A model generated the notes under the pieces. The model worked only from the letters and a program-made list of their open reading frames with translations. It was not told the DNA's origin and searched no databases. Both the position numbers and the translations under genes were made by a program. Of a stretch of 64,000 nucleotides of DNA, positions 26,602-60,301 are shown piece after piece. The stretch's first letter is position 1. Every line of letters begins with the position of its first letter. Source of the DNA: Variovorax sp. SG517 (GTDB taxonomy: Bacteria > Pseudomonadota > Gammaproteobacteria > Burkholderiales > Burkholderiaceae_C); assembly GCF_013376045.1 (NCBI RefSeq), contig NZ_JABMJG010000006.1, forward strand, positions 248,001-312,000. Direction: 5' to 3'.

Positions 26602-26630
26602 GTGAAACCATAGATACCCGAAAGCAGCCC

Positions 26631-28007
26631 ATGGAAGAGGGCGAAGTCCCACGACAGCCGCCCAAACCTGCGTCTCCTCCCGATGAGCAGAGCGTGGCCA
26701 AGGCCAACGAAGCCATCGCGATCCGGCCCAAGCGCGGCCGGCTCACACTGCTGTCGCGCCGCATCTACAACGCACTGCTCTACCATTCGCAGCGCCAGGG
26801 GGTCGACGAACCCGTCTACAAGCTGGCTCTGAGCGAATTGATCGGTGACGCCCGCTTCAACTCCAACAACACCGAACTGCTCAAGTCCCACCTGCGCGAC
26901 ATGCAGGCCACCACCATCGAGTGGTCCACCAGCGGCACGGGACTGAAGCGCTGGGTCTCCTCGCAGCTGTTGGGCACCGTCACCATCGAGGAGCAGGGCA
27001 GGGGACGCCCTTGCACCATCACCTGGCGCTATCCCGAGGAAATCCGCGAGCGGCTGGTCAAGCCGCTGCAATACACGCGCGTGCTGTTGGAGATCAGCGG
27101 GCAGATGCGCAGCTATCCCGCCGCCGTGCTCTACGAGATCGGTGCGCGCTATCTCAGCTCGCCAAGTCGCCTCTCGATGCGCGAGGACGTGCTGTGGTGG
27201 GCCGCGGTCCTGACGGGCCGCAGCGACATCACCGAAGTCGACTACCGCTTTCTCAAGCGCGACGTGATCAGCAAGGCGCTCGCCGAGATCGAAGCCCTGT
27301 GCGAAGACTTCAGCCTCGAACTCATCGAGCACAAGCGCGGCCGCCGCATCGAGGAGATCCAGTTCCGCGTCCAGCCCAAGGTGCAGCAGCGCATGGGGGC
27401 AGCCGATGATCCGAGCCGCAACGTCTTCGACCTGGAACTGGTCGGCAAGCTCATCGCGCTCGGCCTCAAGCAGGACGAGGCCCAGGACCTGTACGCCACC
27501 ACCGACGAGGGCCAGTTGCGCAGCACCCTCGAGCATGTGGAGCAGCGCCTGCGCAGCCAGACCCTGCCCGCGCTCAAGTCCTCGGCCGCGTACTTCAAGG
27601 ACGCGCTGAAGAAGGGCTATGCCGGCATGAAAGGCGCAGGCGAGCCGACCGCCGCTGCGCCGGCCCTGCTTTCGCCCGCGCAGGGGCGCGCAGGCGCCTC
27701 GTTGGGCACCGAGGACCGCATGCACCGGATCCGGGAGCTTTGGGAAAACGACCGCATGCAGAAGGCCAAGGCGCTCTACCTCGAGATGCCCGAAGCCATG
27801 CAGGCCGAGATGCGCTCGCGCTTCGAGGCCGAACGGCTGGCGGAAATTGCCGCGCCCATCGCCCGCGCCTGGCGCCGCGACGGCCCCGCCAGCCGCATTG
27901 CCGGCACCACCTTCCACCGCTGGCTGGCGCAGATCACCTGGCCCGAGGATCCTTCGGATCGCGTGCTGCTCGATTTCGCACTGGCCCAGGGCGTCGCGGG
28001 GATGTGA
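26631..28007 (+). CDS. Replication initiator protein, Rep_3/RepB-like
   Basis: A 458-residue protein. The first winged-helix half contains LTLLSRRIYNALLYHSQRQG (about residues 40-60) and the second contains YPAAVLYEIGARYL and VDYRFLKRDVISKALAEIE, as in the initiators of iteron plasmids. Such proteins bind iterons, melt the origin and recruit helicase. The long C-terminal extension (beyond about residue 270) is helical and typical of larger Burkholderiales versions. It is divergent from parAB across the candidate origin. The start codon is preceded by GAAAG and a plausible promoter. Confidence 0.87.
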   Translation: MEEGEVPRQPPKPASPPDEQSVAKANEAIAIRPKRGRLTLLSRRIYNALLYHSQRQGVDEPVYKLALSELIGDARFNSNNTELLKSHLRDMQATTIEWSTSGTGLKRWVSSQLLGTVTIEEQGRGRPCTITWRYPEEIRERLVKPLQYTRVLLEISGQMRSYPAAVLYEIGARYLSSPSRLSMREDVLWWAAVLTGRSDITEVDYRFLKRDVISKALAEIEALCEDFSLELIEHKRGRRIEEIQFRVQPKVQQRMGAADDPSRNVFDLELVGKLIALGLKQDEAQDLYATTDEGQLRSTLEHVEQRLRSQTLPALKSSAAYFKDALKKGYAGMKGAGEPTAAAPALLSPAQGRAGASLGTEDRMHRIRELWENDRMQKAKALYLEMPEAMQAEMRSRFEAERLAEIAAPIARAWRRDGPASRIAGTTFHRWLAQITWPEDPSDRVLLDFALAQGVAGM

Positions 28008-28110
28008 CCGCGCGGCTGGCCTTGCCCCGCGCAATGGCTGGGTGCGTCGGAGTGCCGATGAACCCGGAGACGACAAGCGGGGTTGTCGATACCGAACGGC
28101 CAGCCTGCCG

Positions 28111-39889: not shown

Positions 39890-40951
39890 TTGGAACTTGC
39901 CAAATCATTGACTCTCAGGCTCGCCTTGGCGGCGGCCGTGACGCTGGCCGTGACTGCATGCGGAGGAGGAAGCGGAGGAGGGGGAGGAGTGCCGCTCACG
40001 GCCCTTCCCGTGTCGCCGGCAGCACCGAGCAATCCGACAGAGCCTGCGGGCGAGACACCGGTTCAGCCGACGGACCCGGTTGCCGAAGCCCCCGACGACA
40101 GCTTCGACACCTACTACAACGTCTGCAGGGGAACGAATCCCAAGTGCTACAACGACTGGGGCGCCTTTGCTTCGACGCCGGACCGGGTGCTGGTCTATTC
40201 GCGCACCGCGGGGCCGCGTCATGCCGTGCTGGGCACGCCGATGGCCGCTGGTTTGAACCCGGTGATGAATCCGGACAACGTGATGCAGGCGGGCCTGGTT
40301 CGCATGCTGTCGGCCGAAGGCATCACGGTCGATTGGACGGAAGATGTCGCGGTCCTCAGCAGCCGCATCAACAACTACAAGGCGATCATCTTCGCGAGCT
40401 CGAACCGCGACACGCTGTGGAACGGCGCGGTCAGCACGAGCCAGGACGCCGCGCGCACCGCGCTGCGCAACTACATGCGCCGCGGCGGCGGCTTCGTCGG
40501 CCTGCACAACGCATTCGGCGCGGAATACAACTGGCCCTACTACGAAGGCCTGCTCGGCAACGCGAACTTCTACAACCACGGGCCGAACCGCGCCGGCGAC
40601 GTCGAGATCGTCTCGGACGATCCGTCGACGAAGGATGTGCCCAAGCGCTTTTCATTCCAGGACGAGTGGTACAACCTCATGCCCTTCCCCACGAAGGTGA
40701 AGTTCCTGGCCAAGGTCGACACCTCGACGCTGAAGCCGCTGACGGCGGCGCCGCATCCGGGCCATGCGGACTTCCATCCCGTCGCCTGGTGCCAGTACTA
40801 CGACGGCGGCCGCGCATGGCTCACGACCCTCGGGCACAACGCCCACTCGTTCACCGCGGACCTGTCGGGCGTAGGGGCCATCGAGTTCCAGAAGCTCGTG
40901 GTCCAGGGCGTCAAGTCGGCCATGGGTCTCACGCCCTTCTGCACTGAATAG
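39890..40951 (+). CDS. ThuA-domain lipoprotein
   Basis: A 353-residue protein starting at TTG; GAGGAG lies 6 bases upstream and the frame from here gives a lipoprotein signal (ALAAAVTLAVTAC, lipidated Cys24) followed by a Gly-rich linker. The ThuA-like domain (class I glutamine amidotransferase-like fold) spans about residues 90-345: RVLVYSRTAGPRHAVLGTP, GFVGLHNAFGAEYNWPYYEG, FSFQDEWYNLMPF and PVAWCQYYDGGRAWLTTLGH. ThuA domains occur in carbohydrate and keto-sugar metabolism, but their reaction is mostly undefined. It is the first gene of the PQQ operon and precedes a PQQ lipoprotein. Confidence 0.85.
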   Translation: MELAKSLTLRLALAAAVTLAVTACGGGSGGGGGVPLTALPVSPAAPSNPTEPAGETPVQPTDPVAEAPDDSFDTYYNVCRGTNPKCYNDWGAFASTPDRVLVYSRTAGPRHAVLGTPMAAGLNPVMNPDNVMQAGLVRMLSAEGITVDWTEDVAVLSSRINNYKAIIFASSNRDTLWNGAVSTSQDAARTALRNYMRRGGGFVGLHNAFGAEYNWPYYEGLLGNANFYNHGPNRAGDVEIVSDDPSTKDVPKRFSFQDEWYNLMPFPTKVKFLAKVDTSTLKPLTAAPHPGHADFHPVAWCQYYDGGRAWLTTLGHNAHSFTADLSGVGAIEFQKLVVQGVKSAMGLTPFCTE

Positions 40952-41057
40952 CGACCGAGCAACGAGCCTGCGAGGCCGGCTTCGCGCACCGCGCACTGCC
41001 CGCGGTGCGTGCGGCCTCGCGCACATCCGTTCCCAACCTCACCAAGTAGAGACATCC

Positions 41058-43280
41058 ATGAACCAAAGATCATTGGTCACGCTGCTGGTTTCCTGCGGCG
41101 TGCTTGCATCCCCCTTGTTGCTCGGCGCTTGCGGCGGTTCGAGCGGCGGCGGCGCGCCGGTGCTGCCTGTCAGCCCGGCCCCCGCGCCACCGCCGGCATC
41201 GAGCGCGCCGCCACCGGCATCTCCGCCGGCGGCCGCCGCGCCCGCGGCCGACCTGTCTGACTGCTGTACGGCCGGCGACAAGGACTTCCCCAAGGTGGGC
41301 GGCAATCTGGGCAACCAGAACTACTCCAGCCTGCGCAAGATCAACAAGGGCCTCGTCGGCCAGCTGGGGGGTGCCTGGGTCAACCAGATCGAGGGCGGCA
41401 TGACCACCGGCACCAACCAGAGCACGACAGTGGTCGTCGACGGCGTGCTCTACATCGAGTCCGCGCTGGGCAACGTGATCGCGGTGGACGGCAAGACCGG
41501 CCTCACGAAATGGAAATGGACCACGCCCTACGGTGCCATCACCCGCCGCGGGGTGGCCGTCGCGAAGGACCTGGGCCTGGTGTTCACCGTCGCCACCGGC
41601 AACCGCCTGGTGGCGCTGAGGACGGACACAGGTGCCATTGCCTGGATCAAGCAGTACCCGAGCAGCAGCACCGACCCCGACTACCAGGGCGCGCTGCAGA
41701 AAGTGGCGCTCGTCTATCACGACAAGCGGCTCTACCTCGGCACCAACGACGGCAATCGCGGTGCGGCGTTCTCCGCCGATGCGTTGACGGGCAAGGTGCT
41801 GACCTCGTTCTGGGGCGTGCCGCGCGCCGGCGAGATCGGCTACGACACCTGGGGCGGTGCCGCCGAATCGGAACGCACCGGTGCGACCCCGTGGATCCAT
41901 CCCGCGGTGGATCCCGAACTGGGCCTGGTCTACTGGACCTTCGGCAACGTGCGCGGCGGTTCGTCGCAGAACGGCTCCACGCGCCCGGGCCTGAATCTCT
42001 TCGCCAATTCGATCGTTGCGCTGGACCTCAAGACCGGCGAATACAAGTGGCACTTCCAGTCCGTGCACCACGACATCTGGGACATGGACAACGTGATGTC
42101 TCCCGTGCTCGCCGACGTCAAGATCGACGGGAAAGACCGCAAGGTCGTGATCTACGGCAGCAAGACGGGCATGTACTACATCCTCGATCGCAAGGACGGC
42201 AGCGCGCCGCTGGGCATCGACGAGGTGCCCGTGAAACAGGACGCCCGCCAGGCCAGCTGGCCGACCCAGCCATTCCCGCGCCAGGGCGCCTGGACCGAGA
42301 CCTGCATCGTGGACCAGCCGCTGGGCACGGCGGTCCCCGGCGACCCCAACCGCGCGGTCCCGAACTACGTGAAGGGCTGCCTCTACGACGCGCACTGGGA
42401 CGTGCCGATCCTCTCCATTCCGGGACATGGCGGCGGTGCCAACTGGAACCACCAGTCCTTCAGCCAGCGCACGGGCCTGGTCTACACGGGCATGGGCTAC
42501 GTGTCGGCGGCGCACTCGCTCACCGAATCGAGCAACGGCCTGCGTCCGCCGGGCACCTACATGACCGGTGCGGTCGTGGCGGTCGATCCGAGCACCAACC
42601 TCGTGAAGTGGAAGAAGCAGATGCCGTACTCGCTGGCGCACGGCAACGGCATCCTGAGCACGGCCTCTGACCTGCTGTTCATCGGACAGCCCGACGGCAA
42701 CCTGCTGGCCCTGGATGCGCATGACGGCAGCGAACTGTGGCGCTTCCAGACCGGTGCCGCGATCAGTGCCAGCCCGGTCTCCTACGAGATCGATGGCGAG
42801 CAGTACATCGCGGTGTTCTCGGGGGGGACGGGCATTCCGTACGGCGATTCGGCACCGCGCGGCGATCGCCTGTGGGCGTTCAAGGTCGGCGGCTCCGTCG
42901 CGCCCGCGCCCACGCCGGTGCCGCCCGTCGTGCGCCGGCCGGTGTCGGGTTCGGCGGTGGAAGGCGCGGCATTGCCGACCCCGAACACAGTGTTCCTGGC
43001 ACGCGTGCAGACCGCCGCGAACGAGCCGGGCACCACCGAATCGACGGCCGTGAATGCCATGACGCCAACCTTCATGCGCGTGCCGGCGAACACCACCGTG
43101 ACCTTCACCAACCCGGGGGCCAATGCGAACACGCACTGCGCCACGCAGTTCTTCGAAGGCAGATTCGATTTCAGGCTGGCTCCGGGCCAGTCCGCGACCC
43201 ACACCTTTGACACGCCGGGCGAATACTTCTACAACGACTGCCATAGCCCGCGCCCGACGGGCAAGATCGTCGTGTATTGA
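41058..43280 (+). CDS. PQQ beta-propeller lipoprotein with C-terminal cupredoxin domain
   Basis: A 740-residue lipoprotein (LLLGAC, Cys25), then a Pro/Ala-rich linker and a PQQ-dependent alcohol-dehydrogenase type propeller (about residues 75-610). Recognisable parts are SALGNVIAVDGKTGLTKWKW, SIVALDLKTGEYKWHFQSVH, catalytic Asp segment HHDIWDMD and LLALDAHDGSELWRFQTGA. The last 100 residues are a cupredoxin-like domain (FMRVPANTTVTFTNPGANAN, HCATQFFEG, TFDTPGEYFYNDCHSPRP), with His, Cys and His as probable copper ligands. Electrons would pass from PQQ to the copper domain in the periplasm. The substrate is unknown. It sits between thuA and pqqA. Confidence 0.88.
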   Translation: MNQRSLVTLLVSCGVLASPLLLGACGGSSGGGAPVLPVSPAPAPPPASSAPPPASPPAAAAPAADLSDCCTAGDKDFPKVGGNLGNQNYSSLRKINKGLVGQLGGAWVNQIEGGMTTGTNQSTTVVVDGVLYIESALGNVIAVDGKTGLTKWKWTTPYGAITRRGVAVAKDLGLVFTVATGNRLVALRTDTGAIAWIKQYPSSSTDPDYQGALQKVALVYHDKRLYLGTNDGNRGAAFSADALTGKVLTSFWGVPRAGEIGYDTWGGAAESERTGATPWIHPAVDPELGLVYWTFGNVRGGSSQNGSTRPGLNLFANSIVALDLKTGEYKWHFQSVHHDIWDMDNVMSPVLADVKIDGKDRKVVIYGSKTGMYYILDRKDGSAPLGIDEVPVKQDARQASWPTQPFPRQGAWTETCIVDQPLGTAVPGDPNRAVPNYVKGCLYDAHWDVPILSIPGHGGGANWNHQSFSQRTGLVYTGMGYVSAAHSLTESSNGLRPPGTYMTGAVVAVDPSTNLVKWKKQMPYSLAHGNGILSTASDLLFIGQPDGNLLALDAHDGSELWRFQTGAAISASPVSYEIDGEQYIAVFSGGTGIPYGDSAPRGDRLWAFKVGGSVAPAPTPVPPVVRRPVSGSAVEGAALPTPNTVFLARVQTAANEPGTTESTAVNAMTPTFMRVPANTTVTFTNPGANANTHCATQFFEGRFDFRLAPGQSATHTFDTPGEYFYNDCHSPRPTGKIVVY

Positions 43281-43320
43281 TCCCGTCCCTCAATCCCCCA
43301 ACCACTGAAGGAGCAATGCG

Positions 43321-43395
43321 ATGAAATGGTGCAAGCCTGAGTTCGAAGAGCTGCGTTTCGGCTTCGAGATCACAATGTACATCTCCGCGCGCTGA
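43321..43395 (+). CDS. pqqA: PQQ precursor peptide PqqA
   Basis: A 24-residue peptide (MKWCKPEFEELRFGFEITMY ending ISAR). It contains the conserved Glu16-x-x-x-Tyr20 pair (EITMY) that is cross-linked by PqqE and becomes PQQ. It starts 40 bp after the propeller gene and is followed by a strong hairpin, so it is probably made in excess over the enzymes downstream. Confidence 0.95.
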   Translation: MKWCKPEFEELRFGFEITMYISAR

Positions 43396-43405
43396 GCGCG
43401 GCCCC

Positions 43406-43439
43406 GACGGCACCGGCTTCGCGCCGGTGCCGTCTTTTT
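43406..43439 (+). terminator. Strong hairpin plus U-run between pqqA and pqqB
   Basis: GACGGCACCGGC (43406-43417), loop TTCGC, GCCGGTGCCGTC (43423-43434) and TTTTT. A perfect 12-bp stem, 10 bp before the pqqB start. It should cause partial termination, giving more pqqA than pqqBCDE transcript. Confidence 0.85.
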
Positions 43440-43449
43440 CTTGTCCCCC

Positions 43450-44370
43450 ATGAAGATTCTGGTTCTTGGTTCGGGAGCGGGCGGTGGCTTCCCTCAATGG
43501 AATTGCAACTGCCGCCTGTGCGCCGGCCAGCGAACCGGGCAGGTCCGGGCCCTTCCTCGCACGCAGAGTTCAATTGCCGTGTCGGCCGACGGCGAACGCT
43601 GGGTGCTGCTGAACGCGTCGCCCGACATCGGCGCTCAGCTGCGCGCCTCGCCGGCGCTGTGGCCTCGCCATGGCCTGCGCGATTCCGCGATCGAGGCCGT
43701 GGTGCTGATGGATTCGCAGATCGACCATGTCGCGGGGCTTCTGAGCCTGCGCGAGGGATCGCGGCTGCAGCTGTACTGCACACCCGAATCCCATGAAGAC
43801 CTCACCGGCAGCCTGCCGTTGTTGAAGGCGCTCGAAAGCTACAGCGGTGTGAGCTGGCATCCGATGCCGCTCGAACCCGGCGGCGGTACGTGGCACGAGA
43901 TCGCCGGCCTGCGCCTGCAGGCCGTGCCGGTTCCCGGCAAGGCGCCCCCTTACTCGCCGCGCCGGCAGGCCGAGACGCGCAGCGACAACGCGGCCGTGCT
44001 GATCGAGGCCCCGGCCAGTGGCCGGCGCGTGTTCTATGCACCAGGCCTCGCACGGGTCGGCGAGGCCGAACGCAGGTGCCTCGACGGCTGCGATACCGTG
44101 CTGGTCGACGGCACCTTCTGGACCGAGGACGAGATGGTCGCGGCGGGCCTCGGCAAGAAGCACGCCGCCGACATGGGCCACCTGCCTCAGTGCGACGGAC
44201 CGCACGGTCCGGGCATGCTGAAGGCGCTGGACGCCTGCACCGCGCGCAGGAAAGTACTCATCCACATCAACAACAGCAACCCGATCCTCGACGAAGACGG
44301 GCCGGAACGCGCCGAGCTCGTGCGTCGCGGCATCGAGGTGGCCTTCGACGGCATGGAACTGGAGATCTGA
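43450..44370 (+). CDS. pqqB: PqqB, MBL-fold PQQ biosynthesis oxygenase
   Basis: A 306-residue protein with the diagnostic N-terminus MKILVLGSGAGGGFPQWNCNC and the metallo-lactamase-like segments LMDSQIDHVAGLL and KHAADMGHLPQCDG, and the C-terminal LIHINNSNPIL. PqqB hydroxylates the cross-linked Glu-Tyr intermediate and needs iron. The Met at 43450 is the family start. It is followed after 3 bp by pqqC. Confidence 0.96.
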   Translation: MKILVLGSGAGGGFPQWNCNCRLCAGQRTGQVRALPRTQSSIAVSADGERWVLLNASPDIGAQLRASPALWPRHGLRDSAIEAVVLMDSQIDHVAGLLSLREGSRLQLYCTPESHEDLTGSLPLLKALESYSGVSWHPMPLEPGGGTWHEIAGLRLQAVPVPGKAPPYSPRRQAETRSDNAAVLIEAPASGRRVFYAPGLARVGEAERRCLDGCDTVLVDGTFWTEDEMVAAGLGKKHAADMGHLPQCDGPHGPGMLKALDACTARRKVLIHINNSNPILDEDGPERAELVRRGIEVAFDGMELEI

Positions 44371-44373
44371 CGC

Positions 44374-45147
44374 GTGACGCAACAGCAACAGCAACAACAA
44401 CAACAGCAGCAGACGCAGACGCAGCAGGAGCCTTGGTCGCCGCAGGTCTTCGAATCGCAGCTGCGCGCGATGGAGTCGCGCTATCACAGCCATCATCCGT
44501 TCAACCGGCGGCTCAATGCCGGCGAACTGCAACCCTTCCAGGTCCGGGGCTGGGTGGCGAACCGGTTCTACTACCAGTGCCGCATTCCCGTGAAGGACGC
44601 GGCGATCCTTTCCAATTGCGATGACCGCGCAACGCGCAGGCGCTGGGTGGTGAGGATGCTCGACCACGACGGGCACGGCGACCACGAGGGCCCCCACGCT
44701 GGCGGCATCGAGATATGGACCCGCCTGGGCCTCGCGACCGGCCTTCGGCGCGATGTGCTGGAGTCGCACGCGCTCGTCCTGCCCGGCGTGCGCTTCGCCG
44801 TGGATGCCTACGTCAACTTCGCGCGCACGGCGCCCTGGCAGGAGGCCGTGATCTCCTCGCTGACCGAGATGTTCGCGCCGCGCATCCACAAGGACCGGCT
44901 CGCGGGCTGGCCCACGCACTATCCGTGGATCGACACCTCGGGCCTGGACTATTTCCGCAGCCGCATCCCGCTGGCCGACCGTGATGTCGAGCATGGCCTG
45001 GAGGTGGCGATGCAGTGGTGCACCACGCGCGAACGGCAGGTTCGTGCCCTGCAGATCCTGGGCTTCAAGCTCGACATCCTCTGGGCCATGCTCGACGCGA
45101 TCGAGAAGGCCTATCCCGACGACCTTGCGAAAGAACAGCAGCCATGA
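44374..45147 (+). CDS. pqqC: PqqC, pyrroloquinoline-quinone synthase
   Basis: A 257-residue all-helical oxidase that carries out the final ring closure and eight-electron oxidation to PQQ. Core segments are [41 protein letters not shown], the His cluster [18 protein letters not shown] and [19 protein letters not shown]. The start is GTG. Residues 3-14 are encoded by a CAA/CAG repeat and give a Gln tract that is not part of the family core. Its TGA overlaps the pqqD ATG by 4 bp. Confidence 0.95.
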
Positions 45148-45413
45148 CCGGATGGACCGACAGCGCACAGCCGGCACTCGGCACGATGTACAGGATGCAA
45201 TGGGAAGAGGCGCAGCAGTGCCATGTGCTGCTGTTTCCCGAGGGCATGATCAGGCTGAACGAGCCGGCGGCGGAGATCCTGAAGCGCTGCGACGGCAAGA
45301 CCTCGGTCGCGGCGCTCGTGGCCGACCTGGAAAGCACCTTCGGTGAACCCGATCTGCGTGCCGACGTGCTCGAGTTCCTGGAGCAGGCCCGTGGACGCCA
45401 CTGGATCCGGTGA
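45144..45413 (+). CDS. pqqD: PqqD, PqqA peptide chaperone
   Basis: An 89-residue protein with the RRE-type winged-helix fold ([40 protein letters not shown]). PqqD binds PqqA and delivers it to PqqE. The ATG at 45144 overlaps the pqqC stop, and the pqqE GTG lies 23 bp inside its 3' end, showing tight coupling. Confidence 0.94.
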
Positions 45414-46569
45414 GCGCGGCCGCGCGGGCGCTGTGAAACCGCCGCTGTGGCTGCTCGCGGAGCTGACCTATCGCTGCCCGCTGCACTGCGCCTTCTGTTC
45501 GAACCCCGTGGACTACACGCGCTACGGCAACGAACTCGACACTGGCGAATGGATTCGCGTGTTCCGCGAGGCGCGCGCCATGGGGGCCGTCCAGCTGGGG
45601 TTCTCGGGTGGCGAGCCGCTGGTGCGCGATGACCTCGAGGAACTCGTCGCGGCGGCGCACCAGCTCGGCTTCTACACCAACCTGATCACCTCGGGCGTGG
45701 GCCTCGTGCCGCGGCGCGCCGAGGCGCTGAAGAAGGCCGGCCTCGATCACATCCAGCTGTCGTTCCAGGACTCCAGCCGCGAGCTGAACGACTTCCTGAG
45801 CTCCACGCGCACCTTCGACCTCAAGCAGCGCGTGGCCCGCACGATCAAGGACCTGGGCTATCCGATGGTGCTGAACTGCGTGATGCACCGGTACAACCTG
45901 CCGCATGTCGGGCGCATCATCGAGATGGCCGAATCCATGGAGGCGGATTTCCTGGAGTTGGCCAACGTGCAGTACTACGGCTGGGCATGGCGCAACCGCG
46001 AGATGCTGATGCCTTCCCGCTCGGCGCTGGCGAGCGCCGAAGCGGTGGTCGAGGCGCACCGGCCGCGCCTCGATGGGCGCATGAAGATCCTCTGGGTGGT
46101 GCCCGACTATGCCGAGGGAAAGCCCAAGCCCTGCATGGCCGGCTGGGGCAGCGTGTTCCTGGTGGTGGCGCCCGACGGCGTGGCCCTGCCGTGCCACAGT
46201 GCGCGAATGCTGCCCGGGCTGGAATTCCCCAACGTTCGCGAGCACGCCGTTCGCAGCATCTGGCACGACAGTCCGGCTTTCGGCGCCTACCGCGGCACCG
46301 GCTGGATGAGCAGCACTTGCGCAAGCTGCGACGACCGGGAAAAGGACCACGGCGGCTGTCGCTGCCAAGCCTATCTCCTCGCCGGCGACGCGGCCGCCAC
46401 GGACCCGGTCTGCCCGAAGAGTCCGCGCCACGCGGAGGTCGAGGCCATGGTCACTGCCGCGGCTGGCGTGGGCGACACCGGCGGCACGCCGATCCGTTTC
46501 GTGCCCGGCGCCAGGCGGTCGGGCGAACTGGTCTTTCGCACCGACGCCAATGCACGGGCGCAGGGCTGA
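45391..46569 (+). CDS. pqqE: PqqE, radical SAM PqqA cross-linking enzyme
   Basis: A 392-residue radical SAM/SPASM enzyme. The SAM cluster motif is C29-x3-C33-x2-C36 in YRCPLHCAFCSNP; LGFSGGEPLVRDDLEELV is the SAM-binding GGE region. C-terminal cysteines (PKPCMAGWGS, LPCHSAR, STCASCDDREK, GGCRCQAY) hold the auxiliary clusters. It forms the C-C bond between Glu16 and Tyr20 of PqqA. The GTG at 45391 (overlapping pqqD) is preceded by GGAG; an upstream in-frame start is less likely. Confidence 0.95.
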   Translation: MDATGSGERGRAGAVKPPLWLLAELTYRCPLHCAFCSNPVDYTRYGNELDTGEWIRVFREARAMGAVQLGFSGGEPLVRDDLEELVAAAHQLGFYTNLITSGVGLVPRRAEALKKAGLDHIQLSFQDSSRELNDFLSSTRTFDLKQRVARTIKDLGYPMVLNCVMHRYNLPHVGRIIEMAESMEADFLELANVQYYGWAWRNREMLMPSRSALASAEAVVEAHRPRLDGRMKILWVVPDYAEGKPKPCMAGWGSVFLVVAPDGVALPCHSARMLPGLEFPNVREHAVRSIWHDSPAFGAYRGTGWMSSTCASCDDREKDHGGCRCQAYLLAGDAAATDPVCPKSPRHAEVEAMVTAAAGVGDTGGTPIRFVPGARRSGELVFRTDANARAQG

Positions 46570-46581
46570 GCGGACCCGCGT

Positions 46582-47565
46582 GTGACGGATGGTCCTCGTC
46601 CGATCGTCCACCGGCTGCCGCTGGACGGCGGGCACGTCATGCATGTCGAGGAGCATGGCGACCCGGCGGGCCTGCCTGCGCTGGTGCTGCACGGCGGGCC
46701 GGGCTCGGGCAGCTCGCCGGTGTTGCGCCGCGACTTCGATGCGAGGCGCTACCGCATCATCTGCCCCGACCAGCGAGGGTCCGGTCGCAGCACGCCGGCA
46801 GGCGCGATCACGGCCAACACGCTCGCCGATCTGCTGGACGACCTGAGGCGCTTGCGCGATCACCTCCGGATCGAGCGCTGGCTCGTGGTGGGCGGCTCCT
46901 GGGGCGCCACGCTGGCTTTGACTCATGCACTGGACCAGCCCGGCGCCGTGGCGGGCCTGCTGCTGAGGAACGTGTTCCTTGCGCGCGCCCGCGACATCGA
47001 CGGCTTCTTCGCGAAGGCGGTACGCCACGGCGACCCCGAGTGGCGCACGTTGTGGAGCGAGGCGTGGCGGCGGCAATGTCCGATCACCGACGTGATCGCG
47101 GAGAACTTGGCGCATGGAACGCCGGAACGCCAGTGCCGGATCGCCGCGCTCTGGTTCGGGTGGGAGCAACGCATGGCCACGGGAAGGCCCGCACCGCAGC
47201 CCGACGACGCAACGCTGCAGCGGCTGGTGGCGCGCTATCGCGTGCAGAGCCACTACCTGAGGCATGGATGCTGGCTGCGCGCGCCCACGCTGCTCGAGCG
47301 TTGCGCCGCATTGCCCGCGGTCCCCACGCTGATCGTGCATGGCACGAAGGACCGCCTGTGCCCGCCGCAGGGCGCCCGGGCGCTGGCGCATGCATTGCAG
47401 GGGCGTGCCATCCTGCGGTGGGCGCCGGGCGCCGGCCACGACCCGACGCACCCGGCCATCGCGGCAGCCATGCGGCAGGCCTTGAACGACTACGCGCTCA
47501 CGCAGGCCTTCAGCGGCGCCGGCGAGTCCGCGCCCGGCATGCGGATCAGCGCAGGCGCTGGCTGA
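46582..47565 (+). CDS. Alpha/beta hydrolase, proline iminopeptidase-like
   Basis: A 327-residue S33-type hydrolase. The oxyanion region is LVLHGGPGSGSSP, the conserved CPDQRGSGRS follows, and the nucleophile Ser is in VVGGSWGATLA (about residue 100). The acid and base are in VHGTKDRLCPPQ and GAGHDPTHPA. Proline iminopeptidases remove N-terminal Pro; similar peptidases next to pqq genes can process the PqqA peptide. The GTG start 12 bp after pqqE and the same orientation make it the last gene of the pqq operon. Its 3' end overlaps the convergent ELWxxDGT gene by 20 bp. Confidence 0.85.
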   Translation: MTDGPRPIVHRLPLDGGHVMHVEEHGDPAGLPALVLHGGPGSGSSPVLRRDFDARRYRIICPDQRGSGRSTPAGAITANTLADLLDDLRRLRDHLRIERWLVVGGSWGATLALTHALDQPGAVAGLLLRNVFLARARDIDGFFAKAVRHGDPEWRTLWSEAWRRQCPITDVIAENLAHGTPERQCRIAALWFGWEQRMATGRPAPQPDDATLQRLVARYRVQSHYLRHGCWLRAPTLLERCAALPAVPTLIVHGTKDRLCPPQGARALAHALQGRAILRWAPGAGHDPTHPAIAAAMRQALNDYALTQAFSGAGESAPGMRISAGAG

Positions 47566-48982
47566 GCGGATCGCCGACCAGGACCACCCGGCCGTCCTTG
47601 CGGTGCGCCCACAGCCGTTCGTTGCCGTTGCCATCGTCTGCAACGAAGAGCACCGAATTGCCCAGCTGGCGGAAACCCTGCGGCATCGCATGGCGTGCGC
47701 CCGACGCGATGTCCGCCACGGCGCGGGTGCCCGCTGGCGTACCGTCGCTGGTCCACGGTTCGACGCCGCTGGCGCTGCCGCCGTTGGCGGAGAACCAGAG
47801 CCGGGAGCCGACGACCGAGAAGCGCGCGGGCGATCCGTTCTGCGCGCCCGGCGCGATGTCCTTGACCAGCACGGTCCCTGCGGCCGTCCCGTCGCTGCGC
47901 CAGAGCTCCGCGCCCGAGGCGCCGTCAGTGGCGGCGAAATAGAGCCGGCCGCCCATGGCCGTCATCGGGCTGGAAATGGCGCCGGACGGTCCCGGGCGGA
48001 TGTCCTTCACCAGTGTGGTTCCGACCTCGGTGCCGTCGCTCTTCCAGAGCTCGAGGCCGTGCACGCCGTCGTCGGCAGCGAAGTACAGGGCGCGGCCGAG
48101 GGCCGTCAGGTGCATCGGTCGGGAGGGTTCGGGACTGGGCCGCAGGTCTTTCACCATGCGTGTGCCGCGTGCCGTGCCGTCGCTCTTCCACAGCTCGATG
48201 CCATGCACGCCGTCGTGGGCGGTGAAATAGAGTTCGTCGCCTGCCGCCGTCAGGTTCTGGATGCCTGCGTCCTCGGGGCCGGGCCGGATGTCCTTCACCA
48301 GGCGCGTGCTCTCGGGCGTGCCTTCGCTGACCCAGAGTTCGTGACCGTGCTCGCGCGTGGTCGCGGTGAAGAACAGACGCTGCCCGGCCACCGTGAGCTG
48401 GCGTGCCACCGCGCGCGGGCCAGCGTCGATCGAGGACACGCGCGCCGTGGTGGACGCGGTGCCCGCCGTCTTCCACAGCTGGAATCCCGAACGCCCGTCA
48501 TTGGCCACGAAGTACAGCGCGTCGCGAAACACCGTCAGCTCGCTCGGCAGCGCGCCTTCTTCGCCCGGCTGAAGGTCGATCACCAGGGCGGTGCCCGCGG
48601 CGGTGCCGTCGGTGCGCCAGAGCTCGATCCCGTGCACGCCATCGGTGGCCGCGGTGTAGACGTGGCCCTTGAACGCCGTCTGGCCGGAGGGGAAGGCGCC
48701 CCGGAAGCCCGGGCGGATGTCCTTGAGCATCGCGGTACCTGCGCGGCTGCCGTCCGTGACCCACAGCTCCTGCCCGCTTTCGACATGGAAGGCACTGAAG
48801 ATCATCTTTCCGCCCAGTGGCGTCAGCCCCGTGGGCGAAACGAAAGCCAGCGGCTGGCGCTGCTCCGGCAGCACCTCGCGGTCGGGTGCCTGCGCGGCCG
48901 CGGGCAACTGCGTCAGGAGCGCGAGCATGCCCAGGAAGATGCGGCCACGCCGCCGCAGGCCGGAAGAAGCGGACCTCGCCAC
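47546..48982 (-). CDS. Secreted ELWxxDGT-repeat protein
   Basis: A 478-residue exported protein (signal peptide RIFLGMLALLTQLPAAAQ) made almost only of about 48-residue repeats, each containing an ELWxxDGT-like core: ELWVTDGSRAGT, ELWRTDGTAAGT, QLWKTAGTASTT, ELWVSEGTPEST, ELWKSDGTARGT, ELWKSDGTEVGT, ELWRSDGTAAGT and EPWTSDGTPAGT. Eight units would form a beta-propeller. The family is found on surfaces and in the periplasm, but its ligand is unknown. It is convergent with the pqq operon and 3 bp from the end of the TRAP operon. Confidence 0.85.
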   Translation of the reverse strand: MARSASSGLRRRGRIFLGMLALLTQLPAAAQAPDREVLPEQRQPLAFVSPTGLTPLGGKMIFSAFHVESGQELWVTDGSRAGTAMLKDIRPGFRGAFPSGQTAFKGHVYTAATDGVHGIELWRTDGTAAGTALVIDLQPGEEGALPSELTVFRDALYFVANDGRSGFQLWKTAGTASTTARVSSIDAGPRAVARQLTVAGQRLFFTATTREHGHELWVSEGTPESTRLVKDIRPGPEDAGIQNLTAAGDELYFTAHDGVHGIELWKSDGTARGTRMVKDLRPSPEPSRPMHLTALGRALYFAADDGVHGLELWKSDGTEVGTTLVKDIRPGPSGAISSPMTAMGGRLYFAATDGASGAELWRSDGTAAGTVLVKDIAPGAQNGSPARFSVVGSRLWFSANGGSASGVEPWTSDGTPAGTRAVADIASGARHAMPQGFRQLGNSVLFVADDGNGNERLWAHRKDGRVVLVGDPLSQRLR

Positions 48983-48985
48983 CGC

Positions 48986-50266
48986 CTAACCCCCGAACCA
49001 TCGCGCGGGCGCGATGACCAGTTGCGGGAATGCGACCATCACGAACAGGATCGCGAACTCGGCAATCATGAAGGGCACCACGCCGCGCGTGACGTCGTCC
49101 ATCGAGATCTTCCCGACGCCGGCCACCACGTTCAGCACCGTGCCCACCGGCGGGGTGACCAGTCCGATCGAGTTGTTGATGATGAACAGCACCCCGAAGT
49201 ACACCGGATCGATTCCCGCGGCCTTGACGATCGGCATCAGCACCGGCGTGAGGATCAGGATGGTCGGCGTCATGTCCATCGCCGTGCCCACGACCATGAC
49301 GAGCACCATGATCGCCGCCATCAGCAGGACCTGATTGCCCATGAAGGGCTGCAGCAGGCCGACGACCTTCGACGGCAGGTCGGCCACGGTGATGAGCCAT
49401 GCGCTCACCATGGCCGCGGCGATCAGAAACATCACGATGGCGCTGGTCTTGGCCGCGCTCACGAAGATGCCGTAGAGGTCCTTCCACGTGATCTCCCGGT
49501 ACACCACCGTCGACACGAACAGTGCGTAGGCGGCGGCCACCACGGCCGCTTCGGTCGGCGTGAACACGCCCATGCGCAGGCCCACGAGGATGATCACGGG
49601 CAGCATGAGCGCCCACAGCGCCTTGCGGAAGGCCGAAACGATCTCGGCCGAGGACTTGCGCGGCGGCGGAACGATCTTCTCGCGCCGCACGAGCCATGCC
49701 CAGGTGATCCACAGGGCGCCGCCGATGAGCAGGCCGGGCACGATCGCCGCGAGGAACAGCTTGGAGATCGACACGTTGGCGGCCACGCCGAAGATCACGA
49801 GGCCGATGCTCGGGGGGATCACCGGGCCGATCACGCCGGTGGCCGCGATGAGGCCGCCCGCGCGTGCCTTGTCGTGCCCCGCGCTCACCATCATCGGCAG
49901 CAGCAGCGCGGTCAGCGCGGCGGCGTCGGCCACGGCCGAGCCGGAGAGCGCCGACAGCAGGCAGCCGGCCATGATGGTCACGTAGCCCAGGCCCCCCTTC
50001 ACATGGCCGACCAGCGCGAGCGCGAAGTCGACGATGCGCTTGGACAGGCCGCCGACGTTCATGATCTCGCCAGCGAGCATGAAGAAGGGAACGGCCAGCA
50101 ATGGGAAGCTGTCGGCGCCGCCGATCACGTTCTGCGCAAGGATCTGTGCGTCGAACAGGTCGAGGTGCCACATCAGCGCCACGCCGCTCGCGAGCAGCGA
50201 GAACGCGATGGGAATGCCCATCGCCATGGCCAGCAGCAAGGTGCCCACGAAGACGAGGATGGTCAT
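48986..50266 (-). CDS. TRAP transporter large permease (DctM-like)
   Basis: A 426-residue membrane protein with about 12 helices. The start MTILVFVGTLLLAMAMGIPI and conserved GGLSKRIVDFALALVGHVKG, SGSAVADAAALTALLLP and VGTVLNVVAGVGKISMDDV are typical for DctM. It forms the inner-membrane transport channel driven by the sodium gradient. Its start overlaps the dctQ stop by 4 bp, so it is in the dctP-aroQ-dctQ-dctM operon. Confidence 0.95.
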   Translation of the reverse strand: MTILVFVGTLLLAMAMGIPIAFSLLASGVALMWHLDLFDAQILAQNVIGGADSFPLLAVPFFMLAGEIMNVGGLSKRIVDFALALVGHVKGGLGYVTIMAGCLLSALSGSAVADAAALTALLLPMMVSAGHDKARAGGLIAATGVIGPVIPPSIGLVIFGVAANVSISKLFLAAIVPGLLIGGALWITWAWLVRREKIVPPPRKSSAEIVSAFRKALWALMLPVIILVGLRMGVFTPTEAAVVAAAYALFVSTVVYREITWKDLYGIFVSAAKTSAIVMFLIAAAMVSAWLITVADLPSKVVGLLQPFMGNQVLLMAAIMVLVMVVGTAMDMTPTILILTPVLMPIVKAAGIDPVYFGVLFIINNSIGLVTPPVGTVLNVVAGVGKISMDDVTRGVVPFMIAEFAILFVMVAFPQLVIAPARWFGG

Positions 50267-50826
50267 CGGCGCGTTCCCTGAGCGTCGTTGTTCGCGCCGA
50301 GTATCTGCTGGAGCTGCACGGCTTCCTCCGACTCCTGGACCATCACGAGGTCGCTCTCGGCGATGCGCCCGGTGAGCAGGCGCAGCAGGTCGAGCGCCAG
50401 GATCAGGCCGGCGAGCACGGAGAAGACCACGCCCGAGGCATAGACGATGGCCATCGATGCGCCGGTGACGGGTGCGGTCACGTCCCAGTTGATGCGCGCC
50501 TGCGCGACGCTGCCCTGGAACAGCAGCCAGACGATGTAGAGCATGACGACGTGCCCGACGGCCAGGCAGACCTTCTTGCCCAGGGGCGGCAGCTTCTGCA
50601 CCACCATGTCCACGCCCAGGTGCCCGTGCTCCTTCAGGGCGACCACGGCGCCCAGGAAGGTCATCCAGATGAAGAGCCAGCGAGACACTTCTTCGGACAC
50701 CGTGATGCCCGAGTTGAAGCCGTAGCGCAGCACGACGTTGCCGAAGACGAGCACGACCATCACCGCGAGCGCGGCCGCGATCAGCGCCTCGATGCCGCGA
50801 CAGCACCGGTCGATCCAGCGGCTCAT
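50263..50826 (-). CDS. TRAP transporter small permease (DctQ-like)
   Basis: A 187-residue protein with four membrane helices (ALIAAALAVMVVLVFGNVVLR, ...WLFIWMTFLGAVVALK, VCLAVGHVVMLYIVWLLF and VVFSVLAGLILALDLL). EEVSRWLFIWMTFLGA is the DctQ signature. It is the small partner of DctM. Its start overlaps the end of the dehydroquinase gene by 4 bp. Confidence 0.93.
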   Translation of the reverse strand: MSRWIDRCCRGIEALIAAALAVMVVLVFGNVVLRYGFNSGITVSEEVSRWLFIWMTFLGAVVALKEHGHLGVDMVVQKLPPLGKKVCLAVGHVVMLYIVWLLFQGSVAQARINWDVTAPVTGASMAIVYASGVVFSVLAGLILALDLLRLLTGRIAESDLVMVQESEEAVQLQQILGANNDAQGTRR

Positions 50827-51278
50827 GCGGCGGCCTGCGCTTCGGTCTGCCTGTGCATCTCCACCAGCGCGCGCAGGGCGGCCAGGTACGACTGGGGGCC
50901 CAGTCCCTGGATCGTGCCCTTGACCGCCGGCGAGATGATCGAGTGGGCGCGCCAGGTTTCGCGCGCGGCGATGTTGGACATGTGCACCTCGATGGTCGGG
51001 AACGGCATGGCCTTGATCGCGTCGTGCAGCGGCACGCCGTGCTGCGTGAGCCCGGCGGGGTTGACCAGCGCGCCCTGCGCGTCGTCGATATGCGCATGAA
51101 GGAAGTCGATCAGGTCGCCTTCATGGTTCGACTGGAGGGTCTCCAGCGTCGCGCCGAGTTCGCCGGCCAGCGCCTGCAGCCGGGCATTGATCTCGGCGAG
51201 CGTGGTCTTGCCGTAGATGTGGGGTTCGCGGCGTCCGAACAGGTTCAGGTTGGGGCCGTGGAGGACGAGTATCTTCAT
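50823..51278 (-). CDS. Type II 3-dehydroquinate dehydratase-like protein
   Basis: A 151-residue AroQ-type dehydratase: LVLHGPNLNLFGRREPHIYG carries the Arg and catalytic Tyr, ETLQSNHEGDLIDFLHAH, and IEVHMSNIAARETWRAHSI carries the Glu and catalytic His. The substrate loop reads NPAGLTQHGVPLHDA: in the usual NxGGLTHTSVALRDA form the first His is replaced by Gln, so specificity may be changed. In a TRAP operon it is more likely catabolic (3-dehydroquinate to 3-dehydroshikimate, as in quinate use) than part of the shikimate pathway; that is inference. It overlaps dctQ by 4 bp. Confidence 0.85.
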   Translation of the reverse strand: MKILVLHGPNLNLFGRREPHIYGKTTLAEINARLQALAGELGATLETLQSNHEGDLIDFLHAHIDDAQGALVNPAGLTQHGVPLHDAIKAMPFPTIEVHMSNIAARETWRAHSIISPAVKGTIQGLGPQSYLAALRALVEMHRQTEAQAAA

Positions 51279-51298
51279 GGAGGTGGCGCGTGGCGCGG

Positions 51299-52300
51299 TC
51301 ATTGTTTGCGGATGCGGGCGAGCTCTTCGTTGTAGAGCTTGACGATGGCGGGGTCGTACTGGGCCGCGAACTTGTCGATCGCCGGCTTGGCGATCTCGCG
51401 CATGCGCACCTGCTCGGCCGCGCTCACCTCGTTGAACTGGGCGCCCTTGGCCTGCAGTTCGCCCACGGCCTTCTGGGCCGCCGCCCGGCTGACCTGGCGC
51501 TGGTAGCCGCGCGCCTCGTCGGCGGCCTCGTGCATCATCTTCTGCTCGGCGGGGGACAGCGAGTCCCAGAACTTCTTGCTGACCAGCACGATGTTGGCGG
51601 CATACACGTGATTCGTCGTGCTCACGAACTTCTGTACCTCGAAGAACTTGTTCGACAGGATCACCGAATACGGGTTCTCCTGGCCGTCGACTGCCTTGGC
51701 TTCGAGCGCGCCGTAGAGTTCTGCGAACGGCATCGGCACCGGGTTGGCCTTGAAGGCCTTGAAGGTCTCCAGGAACACGGGGTTGGGAATGACGCGGATC
51801 TTCAGGCCCTCGAGGTCCTCGGGCCTGCCGATGGGACGCTTGCTGTTGGTGACGTTGCGAAAGCCCAGGTCCCAGTAGCCAAGGGCCACGAGGCCTTTCT
51901 CGGGCAGCTTGGCGACGAGGGCCTGTCCCAGGGGGCCGTCGAGCAGGGCGTCGGCCTGGGCGAAGCTGCTGACGGAGAAGGGGAAGTCGACCAGGCCGAA
52001 CTCCTTGACGATGCCCGCGAGCGACGTGGTGGCCGGCGCCGACATCTGCTGCACGCCGCCTTGCAGCGCGGACTGCTGCTGCATCTCGTTGCCGAGCTGG
52101 GAGGCCGGGAACTCCTGCACCTTCATCTTGCCGCCGCTCTTGGCCGCGAGCAGCTCCGCGAAGCGCTTCACGCCGAAGCTCACCGGATGGTCCGCATTGT
52201 TGAGATGGCCGAAGCGGATCACCCGTTCCTGTTGGGCCCAGGTCGGGGCGACAAGGCCGATGCACAGGCCGGCGGCGGCAAGCGTACGAAGAAGTTTCAC
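51299..52300 (-). CDS. TRAP substrate-binding protein (DctP-like), first copy
   Basis: A 333-residue periplasmic protein with signal peptide (LRTLAAAGLCIGLVAPTWAQ). DctP segments are GYWDLGFRNVTNSKRPIGR, LKIRVIPNPVFLETFKAF and ELYGALEAKAVDGQENPYSVI; Arg in KIRV and the Asn of QENP normally clamp a carboxylate ligand. It is the first gene of the TRAP operon. The divergent IclR gene is 152 bp away with the shared operator between them. A similar binding protein is at 53260. Confidence 0.94.
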   Translation of the reverse strand: MKLLRTLAAAGLCIGLVAPTWAQQERVIRFGHLNNADHPVSFGVKRFAELLAAKSGGKMKVQEFPASQLGNEMQQQSALQGGVQQMSAPATTSLAGIVKEFGLVDFPFSVSSFAQADALLDGPLGQALVAKLPEKGLVALGYWDLGFRNVTNSKRPIGRPEDLEGLKIRVIPNPVFLETFKAFKANPVPMPFAELYGALEAKAVDGQENPYSVILSNKFFEVQKFVSTTNHVYAANIVLVSKKFWDSLSPAEQKMMHEAADEARGYQRQVSRAAAQKAVGELQAKGAQFNEVSAAEQVRMREIAKPAIDKFAAQYDPAIVKLYNEELARIRKQ

Positions 52301-52451: not shown

Positions 52452-53234
52452 ATGAGCGAGATGCTGGGACGCAGCTTCAAAGTGTTGGAATACCTGGCGG
52501 AACATCCGCAGGGTGTTGCACTGTCCACGGTGGCCAGTGAGTTGAAGATCCCCCTGAGCGCATCGCACCGACTGCTCACGGAGCTGATTCGCTGCGGCTA
52601 CGTACGACAGAACCTGGGCGACGGTCACTACGTGCTGACCATCAAGCTCGTCTCCGTCGGCCTGTCGTTCCTGAGCAATTCGGGCATCGTGGATGTGGCC
52701 CAGCCGCTGCTGGACCAACTCGCGGCAGCCTCGGGCGAACTGGTGCGCCTGGCGGTGGTCGACGACGAAGACCTGACCTTCGTGGCCAAGGCGCAAGGGG
52801 CCACGCACGGGCTGCGCTACGACCCGGACATGGGGCTGTCGGTGATGCTGTCGTGCAGCGCCGCGGGGCATGCCTGGCTCTCGACGATGAGCGAAGACGA
52901 TGCGATGGCCCTGGTGGCCAAGAAGGGGCTGGGCAAGCCGGAGGACTTCGGCCCGAAGGCGCCCACCACGCTCAAGGCGGTGATGGCCTATGTGAAGGCC
53001 GCCCGCCAGCGCGGCTTCAGCATGATCAACGAGGTCTTCGCGCCGGGAATGACCGCCATGGCCGCCCCGGTCTTCTCCGTCAACGGCGCGGTGATCGGCG
53101 TGGTCACCATCGCGGGCCCGGCCGTCAGGCTGACGCCGCAGCGGATGGAGGCGCTGGGGCCGGCGCTGCTCGGCACGGCCGAGGAAGTCGCACGCGCCAG
53201 CGGCGCCTCGGCGCTGTTCAAGAAGAGAGCCTGA
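52452..53234 (+). CDS. IclR-family transcriptional regulator
   Basis: A 260-residue regulator: winged helix (about residues 5-65, GRSFKVLEYLAEHPQGVALS and LKIPLSASHRLLTELIRCGYV), then the GAF-like effector domain (80-250) with INEVFAPGMTAMAAPVFSVN. IclR proteins bind palindromes of about 15 bp. It lies between two TRAP binding protein genes, is divergent from the TRAP operon and lies by the palindrome that is also found 12.6 kb away, so it probably controls both operons. Confidence 0.93.
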   Translation: MSEMLGRSFKVLEYLAEHPQGVALSTVASELKIPLSASHRLLTELIRCGYVRQNLGDGHYVLTIKLVSVGLSFLSNSGIVDVAQPLLDQLAAASGELVRLAVVDDEDLTFVAKAQGATHGLRYDPDMGLSVMLSCSAAGHAWLSTMSEDDAMALVAKKGLGKPEDFGPKAPTTLKAVMAYVKAARQRGFSMINEVFAPGMTAMAAPVFSVNGAVIGVVTIAGPAVRLTPQRMEALGPALLGTAEEVARASGASALFKKRA

Positions 53235-60156: not shown

Positions 60157-60301
60157 GAATGTCTCCATATGCGAATGCGGGCAGGCTGCACGCGACGGGA
60201 TCATACGAAAAACATGTCAATTATCAAAATAAGATAATTGAGATATGATTTGTTTGTCGAATCCAGAAAAGAGATGCTTCGTTATCGAAGGAAGACAATC
60301 C

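Follow-up and report, generated by a model that had tools for sequence, protein, structure and literature searches.

What does an exported quinoprotein do when its gene is preceded by a gene for a ThuA-domain lipoprotein and followed by the genes for synthesis of pyrroloquinoline quinone (PQQ)? This question is raised by an operon of Variovorax sp. SG517 carried on a stretch of 64,000 nucleotides (hereafter 'the window'), which corresponds to positions 248001-312000 of contig NZ_JABMJG010000006.1 within a 7.42-Mb genome. From our analyses of the ThuA protein, the quinoprotein (QP) and their relatives, we conclude that the two form a genuine conserved two-protein exported module. Furthermore, we favor, at a probability of roughly 0.57, the reading that QP is a PQQ dehydrogenase that is exported and oxidizes quinate, a plant ring acid, or a closely related compound; it would act with its near-obligate ThuA partner, and its product would be imported by a tripartite ATP-independent periplasmic (TRAP) transporter and dehydrated by the type II dehydroquinase AroQ en route to protocatechuate.

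Organization of the operon

The operon comprises the following features.

39890..40951, + strand, ThuA-domain lipoprotein (353 amino acids assuming the TTG start at 39890; lipobox LAVTAC; Pfam ThuA E = 8.6e-41)
41058..43280, + strand, QP, a quinoprotein lipoprotein (740 amino acids; lipobox LLLGAC; Pfam PQQ propeller E = 9.2e-78)
42957..43277, + strand, cupredoxin-like domain at the C-terminus of QP, with no apparent copper site (Cupredoxin_1 27.4 bits for the domain alone; best profile E against PDB copper-protein domains 4.8e-9)
43321..43395, + strand, pqqA, PQQ precursor peptide of 24 amino acids (TIGR02107, 44.7 bits, cut-off 20)
43406..43434, + strand, hairpin resembling an intrinsic terminator in the pqqA/pqqB gap (12 pairs and a T run)
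43450..44370, + strand, pqqB (TIGR02108, 390.7 bits, cut-off 245)
44374..45147, + strand, pqqC (TIGR02111, 309 bits, cut-off 240)
45144..45413, + strand, pqqD (TIGR03859, 107.3 bits, cut-off 46)
45433..46569, + strand, pqqE, radical SAM protein, start codon estimated (TIGR02109, 515.5 bits, cut-off 381.35)
46582..47565, + strand, prolyl-aminopeptidase-like alpha/beta hydrolase, last gene of the operon (TIGR01249, 192.8 bits, below the cut-off of 259.75)

A preliminary description made from the letters of the window alone had placed two lipoproteins, ThuA and QP, ahead of pqqABCDE, and both lipoboxes and the Pfam and NCBIfam scores bear this out. The pqqABCDE set is complete, with all five genes exceeding their NCBIfam cut-offs. 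The hairpin between pqqA and pqqB has the longest stem of seven terminator-like sites in the region, where shuffled sequences give a mean of 5.5.

For comparison we used the best 80 of 181 confirmed QP relatives (loci L024-L103), which by record title divide into 43 beta/gamma-proteobacterial, 31 actinobacterial and 6 other loci; counts out of 81 refer to alignments of these 80 plus the QP of the window. The closest named homologous locus is that of Variovorax gossypii DSM 100435 (L024), whose best segment is 99% identical. The order ThuA-QP-pqq recurs in eight more Variovorax loci among the 80.

ThuA and QP form a conserved exported pair

A ThuA gene lies within the fetched flank of QP in 58 of the 80 loci, and the two matches are at most 500 base-pairs apart in 41 of these and further apart in 17. 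Among the 41 close pairs, ThuA is upstream on the same strand in 28, upstream and divergent in 7, downstream on the same strand in 5 and downstream on the opposite strand in 1. There are 22 loci whose flanks carry no ThuA, and 13 of the 18 corresponding genomes that were searched encode a strong ThuA elsewhere (E of 7e-116 or better). No strong ThuA was found in the other five searched genomes (L094, L095, L096, L098 and L099), whose QPs are divergent, at ~48-53% identity. The genomes of L055, L072 and L073 also encode a strong ThuA, and L033 is a truncated contig that lay outside the search.

This association extends to genomes that were sampled independently of it. Among 200 genomes of the same family, chosen without regard to ThuA or QP, the 13 that encode QP (E<=1e-60) are exactly the 13 that encode ThuA (E<=1e-25) (Fisher p = 1e-20; this and all other Fisher p values given herein ignore relatedness among genomes). 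A second sample comprised 150 genomes from the actinobacterial family of G229 (L068, Paractinoplanes), of which 26 encode QP. In this sample 83 genomes have a ThuA match at E<=1e-25, but the E values separate into two groups, a strong one (E<=7.6e-55) and a weak one (E>=1.2e-32) that consists of other ThuA domains and fragments. With the cut placed at 1e-50, which was set after this gap in E values was noticed, a strong ThuA is present in 25 of the 26 QP genomes versus 1 of the 124 others (G267; Fisher p = 3e-26). The 26th QP genome, G244, carries just a ThuA fragment beside QP. A neighborhood search for co-occurrence had been proposed at the outset, and its outcome is that the partnership is near-obligate in both Proteobacteria and Actinobacteria. 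The two genes can nevertheless be unlinked, as evident by their location on separate contigs in G116 and ~22 kb apart in G174. A fusion of ThuA with QP was considered for L084, L047 and L092, where a stop-free QP frame spans the ThuA region, and was rejected: judged by coordinates, the frames differ in L084 and L047, and L092 has an interrupted ThuA gene.

A literature search that covered mostly papers outside subscription journals returned no paper combining ThuA with a PQQ-dependent dehydrogenase, and found ThuA and a quinoprotein together only in one unrelated review. One paper on PQQ-binding proteins makes no mention of ThuA, quinate, cupredoxin or lipoprotein.

Both proteins of the window carry lipoboxes, and by a crude test the same is true of 20 of the 80 QPs and 26 of the 58 ThuAs. 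Those actinobacterial ThuAs and QPs whose N-termini were inspected have signals resembling Tat or Sec signals by eye. Thus, the initial term 'membrane-anchored' is apt only for a subset of these proteins.

The ThuA protein scores 140.9 bits against PF06283 (cut-off 33.4) and has a class I glutamine-amidotransferase-like fold. Its structural model (predicted local distance difference test score, pLDDT, 87.9) best matches the ThuA-like structure 4jqs (Z 21.5, root mean square deviation 2.8, 218 residues aligned), which is termed uncharacterized in PMC7229062. The ThuA of thuAB systems shares this family and fold and likewise works beside a dehydrogenase. However, the ThuA of the window is exported and its partner is a PQQ-type propeller, whereas the partner in thuAB is the oxidoreductase ThuB. 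PMC4765114, in a reference title and in its text, connects thuAB with disaccharide 3-keto derivatives.

The exported ThuA would most likely be an enzyme that acts on the ring substrate of QP or on the resulting ring ketone. A less probable, though quite possible, alternative is that ThuA has no enzymatic role and instead serves QP as a chaperone or structural subunit, which would be compatible with the reading that we favor. Its near one-to-one occurrence with QP, and the export signals carried by QP and ThuA alike in the inspected loci, would suit such a role. In contrast, 72 alignment columns are invariant among 30 ThuA sequences; His, Asp, Glu, Arg, Tyr and Trp account for many of these columns, a composition that resembles an active site. 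The distance that can separate the two genes in G174 and G116 also argues against a mere subunit.

QP is a divergent PQQ-dehydrogenase-type protein

Following its signal and lipobox, QP consists of an eight-bladed propeller of the PQQ-dehydrogenase type (amino acids ~64-617) and the C-terminal domain. The QP model (pLDDT 88.3) has its best fold match in 1kv9 (Z 39.5, root mean square deviation 2.6, 494 residues aligned), and the eight-bladed propeller is common to the quinohemoprotein and quinoprotein alcohol dehydrogenases (1kv9, 1kb0 and 1yiq; TIGR03075), which are matched at Z 38.2-39.5. Relative to 1kb0, QP retains Arg164, Trp279, Asn297, Asp342, Lys369 and Trp463. Asn297 is present in 78 of the 81 QPs, and R164, W279, D342, D344, K369 and W463 are invariant in all 81. 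The alignment to 1kb0 assigns Asp342 as the catalytic Asp and Trp279 as the stacking Trp, and QP also shares with the quinohemoprotein enzymes the Lys and, from the NW pair, the Trp.

The spacing of Asp342-x-Asp344 equals that of Asp299/Asp301 in XoxF2, where the extra Asp is described in PMC8546591 as essential for lanthanide coordination; a lanthanide role for the second Asp is also given in PMC11996626. The metal-coordinating Glu of XoxF/PedH corresponds to Asn230 in QP, and lanthanide use by QP is putative.

QP scores 269 bits against the PQQ alcohol dehydrogenase family TIGR03075 (cut-off 480.05) and 179.7 bits against the membrane PQQ quinate/glucose dehydrogenase family TIGR03074 (cut-off 832.65). 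The propeller match begins at amino acid 78, after the signal and a linker, and there is no N-terminal transmembrane domain. Because no cut-off is passed, on these scores QP is not assigned to TIGR03075, TIGR03074 or TIGR04528 (the last is discussed below), and it is best described as a divergent PQQ-dehydrogenase-type protein.

Neighboring genes point to a quinate-type ring acid as the probable substrate

Beyond the operon, the window carries a set of genes on the opposite strand and a divergent regulator.

47546..48982, - strand, ELWxxDGT-repeat protein (TIGR04534, 494.1 bits)
48986..50266, - strand, TRAP large permease DctM (TIGR00786, 482.6 bits)
50263..50826, - strand, TRAP small permease DctQ, named by position and cluster (4-base-pair overlap with aroQ)
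50823..51302, - strand, AroQ paralog, type II 3-dehydroquinate dehydratase, within the TRAP operon (inferred start 51302; NF003807, 181.4 bits)
51299..52300, - strand, TRAP solute-binding protein DctP (TIGR00787, 258.1 bits)
52452..53234, + strand, IclR-family regulator, transcribed divergently from the TRAP/aroQ genes (best matches BhcR, IclR and PcaR/PcaU, all below cut-off)

The dctP-aroQ-dctQ-dctM genes have overlapping ends and are followed by the ELWxxDGT-repeat gene. AroQ exceeds the NF003807 cut-off of 130 and matches Pfam DHquinase_II (E = 1.4e-50), but its 158.1 bits against the equivalog TIGR01088 fall below the cut-off of 169.85.

Similar neighbors are widespread. AroQ-, QuiC- or AroE-type genes, counted by tblastn, flank QP in 54 of the 80 loci: 30 of the 43 beta/gamma-proteobacterial, 24 of the 31 actinobacterial and none of the 6 other loci. 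In six actinobacterial loci (L055, L065, L073, L077, L078 and L086) an AroQ-like frame begins within ~15 base-pairs of the end of QP. A start codon for this frame was located in three of the six; it overlaps the QP stop codon in L073 and L086, and the L055 frame is divergent. Three genes at L093, which belongs to the 'other' loci, lie 1-6 kb upstream of the ThuA and QP genes and exceed their cut-offs. They encode a 4-oxalomesaconate tautomerase, the alpha subunit of a protocatechuate 4,5-dioxygenase and the beta subunit of a class III extradiol dioxygenase. Separately, L093 encodes a second quinoprotein beside ThuA (13227-15359), whose top family is the membrane PQQ glucose/quinate dehydrogenase, at a score well below cut-off.

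The SG517 genome encodes four type II dehydroquinases in 7.4 Mb. Therefore, chance AroQ neighbors should be rare, although the flank counts are raw. Contig 12 of this genome encodes a QuiC-like protein (767 bits), followed by a gene resembling a major facilitator superfamily transporter by eye. The QuiC score is below the cut-off of 1200, which also is passed by none of three matching control genomes, including that of C. glutamicum.

These neighbors call to mind the route from quinate via dehydroquinate and dehydroshikimate to protocatechuate, in which the first step, from quinate to 3-dehydroquinate, is performed outside the cytoplasm by the PQQ enzyme QuiA/mQDH, according to PMC4213383 and PMC9171043. 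QP probably shares this chemistry and pathway with the membrane PQQ quinate/glucose dehydrogenases (QuiA, mGDH). However, QP differs in lacking the N-terminal transmembrane domain, in being a lipoprotein or soluble, and in being paired with ThuA. The Qsu/Qui quinate-shikimate clusters likewise have QuiC-, AroE- and AroQ-type genes, whereas the dehydrogenase at QP loci would be the ThuA/QP pair. A 'sugar-like or polyol' substrate had originally been suggested, with quinate listed among the compounds for assay. The neighborhood narrows this range to a quinate/dehydroquinate-type ring acid.

Supply of PQQ

Genes for PQQ synthesis occur in the QP flank of 15 of the 80 loci, comprising 8 Variovorax and 7 actinobacterial loci with differing gene orders. 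In the sample of 200 family genomes, pqqC is present in 8 of the 13 QP genomes versus 40 of the 187 others (p = 0.003). The 50 QP genomes searched for pqqC, whether a match was found (19) or not, all share residues R164, W279, D342, D344, K369 and W463.

Some QP genomes without a pqqC match carry a TonB receptor resembling PqqU, a PQQ importer according to PMC12124388. The receptor gene is located ~5 kb from QP in L034 (17321-19471), ~0.2 kb behind QP in L054 (12403-14409; assigned as a homolog of the L034 receptor) and between QP and ThuA in G174 (C1:2154733-2156700). None was found in the flanks of the 78 loci other than L034 and L054. We use the term 'PqqU-like' for these receptors, given that no match in the 200 family genomes reaches the curated PqqU cut-off. 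At E<=1e-130, a PqqU-like receptor is present in 13 of 13 QP genomes versus 94 of the 187 others (p = 0.0002). A stricter line of E<=1e-195, set after viewing the list, gives 11 of 13 versus 33 of 187. Because pqq or PqqU-like genes neighbor QP, and because the active-site residues are constant with or without pqqC, we favor the view that QP is a PQQ enzyme that often would be supplied from outside the cell.

Proposed pathway and its alternatives

In the pathway that we infer, QP would use PQQ to oxidize quinate or a closely related compound at a ring hydroxyl outside the cytoplasm, yielding a 3-keto acid of the 3-dehydroquinate type. The neighboring TRAP transporter would import this keto acid, and the AroQ paralog encoded in the TRAP operon would dehydrate it. 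QuiC, encoded elsewhere in the genome, could then convert the dehydroshikimate-type product to protocatechuate. ThuA would share the compartment of QP, most likely as an enzyme for the ring substrate or ketone and otherwise as an accessory subunit. The PQQ presumably comes from the adjacent pqq operon in SG517, and from outside in relatives without pqq genes. In this scheme the gene order, protein families, folds, co-occurrence and the pattern of ligand conservation are observed, and PQQ binding, the substrate, the direction of flow and the role of ThuA are interpretation.

Several observations count against this proposal. Unlike the PQQ alcohol dehydrogenases, and in addition to its score below the TIGR03075 cut-off, QP lacks the vicinal Cys-Cys disulfide: residues Cys116 and Cys117 of 1kb0 are matched in QP by Ala160 and a gap, and 79 of the 81 QPs have T, A, S, V, P or G at position 160. 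Likewise, the Glu metal ligand is replaced in the 1kb0 alignment by Asn230 (followed by Asp231), and Asn occupies this position in 67 of the 81. The best NCBIfam match of QP is the acido-empty-quinoprotein group A (TIGR04528), at 276.5 bits with a cut-off of 650. No pqqC match was found in 31 of the 50 QP genomes searched. The actinobacterial sample yields only a weak enrichment of pqqC (6 of 26 QP genomes versus 12 of 124 others; p = 0.09). Five of those six pqqC genes lie, by their coordinates, within a few kb of QP or ThuA. If anything, two active-site positions are less conserved in genomes with pqqC than in those without it: Asn230 is present in 12 of 19 versus 28 of 31, and Asn297 in 17 of 19 versus 31 of 31.

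Other contrary points concern the substrate. By tblastn, no gene of the quinate type was found around QP in 26 of the 80 loci, where several flanks stop at contig ends. In 27 of 34 loci the best-matching linked AroQ has another residue in place of the His of the N-P-G-x-x-T-H motif, an active-site residue of type II dehydroquinases. The replacements are Gln (20) and Phe (1) in Proteobacteria and Thr, Ser or Ala (6) in Actinobacteria. The AroQ of the window reads NPAGLTQ, while a paralog in the same genome (L108) retains the His (NPGAYTH). Because most linked AroQ proteins lack this His, the actual substrate may be a quinate analog. Finally, genes for a thiamine diphosphate (ThDP) enzyme, an aldehyde dehydrogenase, a class III CoA-transferase and a citryl-CoA-lyase-like protein lie near QP in L051 (196-5469) and similar loci, and this actinobacterial set is unexplained by quinate. 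A ThDP or lyase cluster is found in 25 of 31 actinobacterial versus 3 of 43 beta/gamma-proteobacterial loci; these and other gene-cluster counts come from gene calls filtered by third-codon-position GC content (GC3) and are rough lower bounds.

The 26 flanks devoid of quinate-type genes would also be expected if QP and ThuA instead process a sugar or sugar polyol by 3-keto sugar chemistry, as in thuAB, and if the dehydroquinase-type neighbors serve an unrelated compound. ThuA is named for trehalose utilization, and PMC4765114 ties thuAB to 3-keto derivatives. However, this alternative fits poorly with the AroQ-like frames that begin right behind QP in six actinobacterial loci, with the QuiC/AroE-like genes in a second phylum and with the protocatechuate-cleavage genes upstream in L093, and we consider it unlikely.

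A further alternative is that QP is an 'empty' propeller free of PQQ, which serves as a scaffold or binding protein, such that ThuA is the enzyme and the pqq operon is incidental. The top NCBIfam model, the missing Glu ligand and disulfide, and the 31 genomes without pqqC would all be consistent with such a protein. Nevertheless, pqq or PqqU-like genes recur beside QP in unrelated lineages, and all 50 genomes, regardless of pqqC, retain the catalytic Asp, the stacking Trp and the Lys. Consequently, we regard an empty propeller as improbable.

The C-terminal domain of QP

Where the quinohemoprotein alcohol dehydrogenases have a cytochrome c, QP has a cupredoxin-like domain. The fold search covers mainly model residues 1-551, and the domain is assigned from sequence profiles. 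Cupredoxin_1 scores 22.5 bits on whole QP, under its cut-off of 27, and passes this value when only the C-terminal domain is used; 12 of 36 members match at E<=0.001. The cupredoxin character of the domain, including its similarity to copper-protein domains of the PDB, is thus a matter of sequence profiles.

The preliminary description noted His, Cys and His in cupredoxin order and proposed that oxidation at PQQ could be wired directly to copper. The residues are indeed present in the window QP, which contains His693, Cys694, Cys728 and His729, and the profile is cupredoxin-like, but the ligands are not conserved. His693, Cys728 and His729 occur jointly in 24 of the 81 aligned sequences, and a Met after position 728 occurs in none, so the His-Cys-His(-Met) ligand set of a type-1 cupredoxin is absent as a conserved feature. 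Cys694 and Cys728 covary (both present in 50 sequences, neither in 29, Cys728 alone in 2), which fits a disulfide. Moreover, profile alignments with the blue-copper protein 5fc9 and the copper nitrite reductase 9cck place the copper Cys at Asp727 and the copper His at residue 730. Despite the cupredoxin-type profile and the His, Cys and His that the window QP happens to carry, the non-conserved ligands, the covarying Cys pair and the profile alignments lead us to reject a type-1 copper site, and make it very improbable that copper in this domain takes electrons without a cytochrome c.

Because the domain is well conserved about the stretches TQFFEG and ND..SPR.TGK, it probably docks or shapes something, and a structural or docking role without type-1 copper is what we propose for it. 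A candidate cytochrome c partner (a CxxCH gene of <400 amino acids) was found only at L090 among the crudely called genes of the 80 loci, a weak negative in that genes of <80 amino acids or failing the GC3 filter are missed. The literature search described above returned no paper joining a quinoprotein, a cupredoxin domain and PQQ.

Genomic setting

An ELWxxDGT-repeat cluster accompanies the ThuA/QP pair in 25 of the 80 loci, many of them proteobacterial. In L027, L033 and L036, QP is followed by the ELWxxDGT gene without intervening pqqB-E, and L033 has just a weak pqqA-like match. It appears as if the pqq cassette has been gained or lost at this spot.

At 23400-28010, the window carries genes that by eye resemble those for ParB, ParA and a replication initiator. 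Its best plasmid matches are Variovorax replicons of 1.2-1.3 Mb, two of which carry the quinoprotein too. Because of these partition and replication genes and plasmid matches, the window is probably part of a megaplasmid or chromid. At 60245-63371 are genes resembling, by eye, those for a VOC dioxygenase, a flavin hydroxylase and a fumarylacetoacetate hydrolase, which perhaps represent an aromatic-degradation set on the same replicon.

Implications

A more ambitious version of our proposal is that ThuA and QP define an undescribed exported class in which a lanthanide/PQQ propeller without the vicinal disulfide is obligately paired with a catalytic ThuA that converts the 3-keto ring product, directing quinate-type acids toward protocatechuate outside the cytoplasm in both phyla. 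We consider this combination speculative and, as a whole, rather unlikely. If true, ThuA would gain a 3-keto ring chemistry that also suits thuAB.

In the ThuA literature consulted, including PMC7229062, no established activity is reported for the ThuA domain. A near one-to-one partnership with a dehydrogenase, in two phyla and within a defined pathway, makes ThuA function experimentally addressable. If QP is a quinate-type dehydrogenase, it would represent an alternative to the membrane enzyme QuiA. If its Asp pair binds lanthanides, rare-earth enzymology would reach ring acids and Actinobacteria. A disulfide above PQQ has been linked to electron transfer to cytochrome (PMC8546591), and its absence from QP would demand a different electron route. 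Finally, because 31 of the 50 QP genomes lack a pqqC match, many hosts of this system may rely on PQQ made by others.

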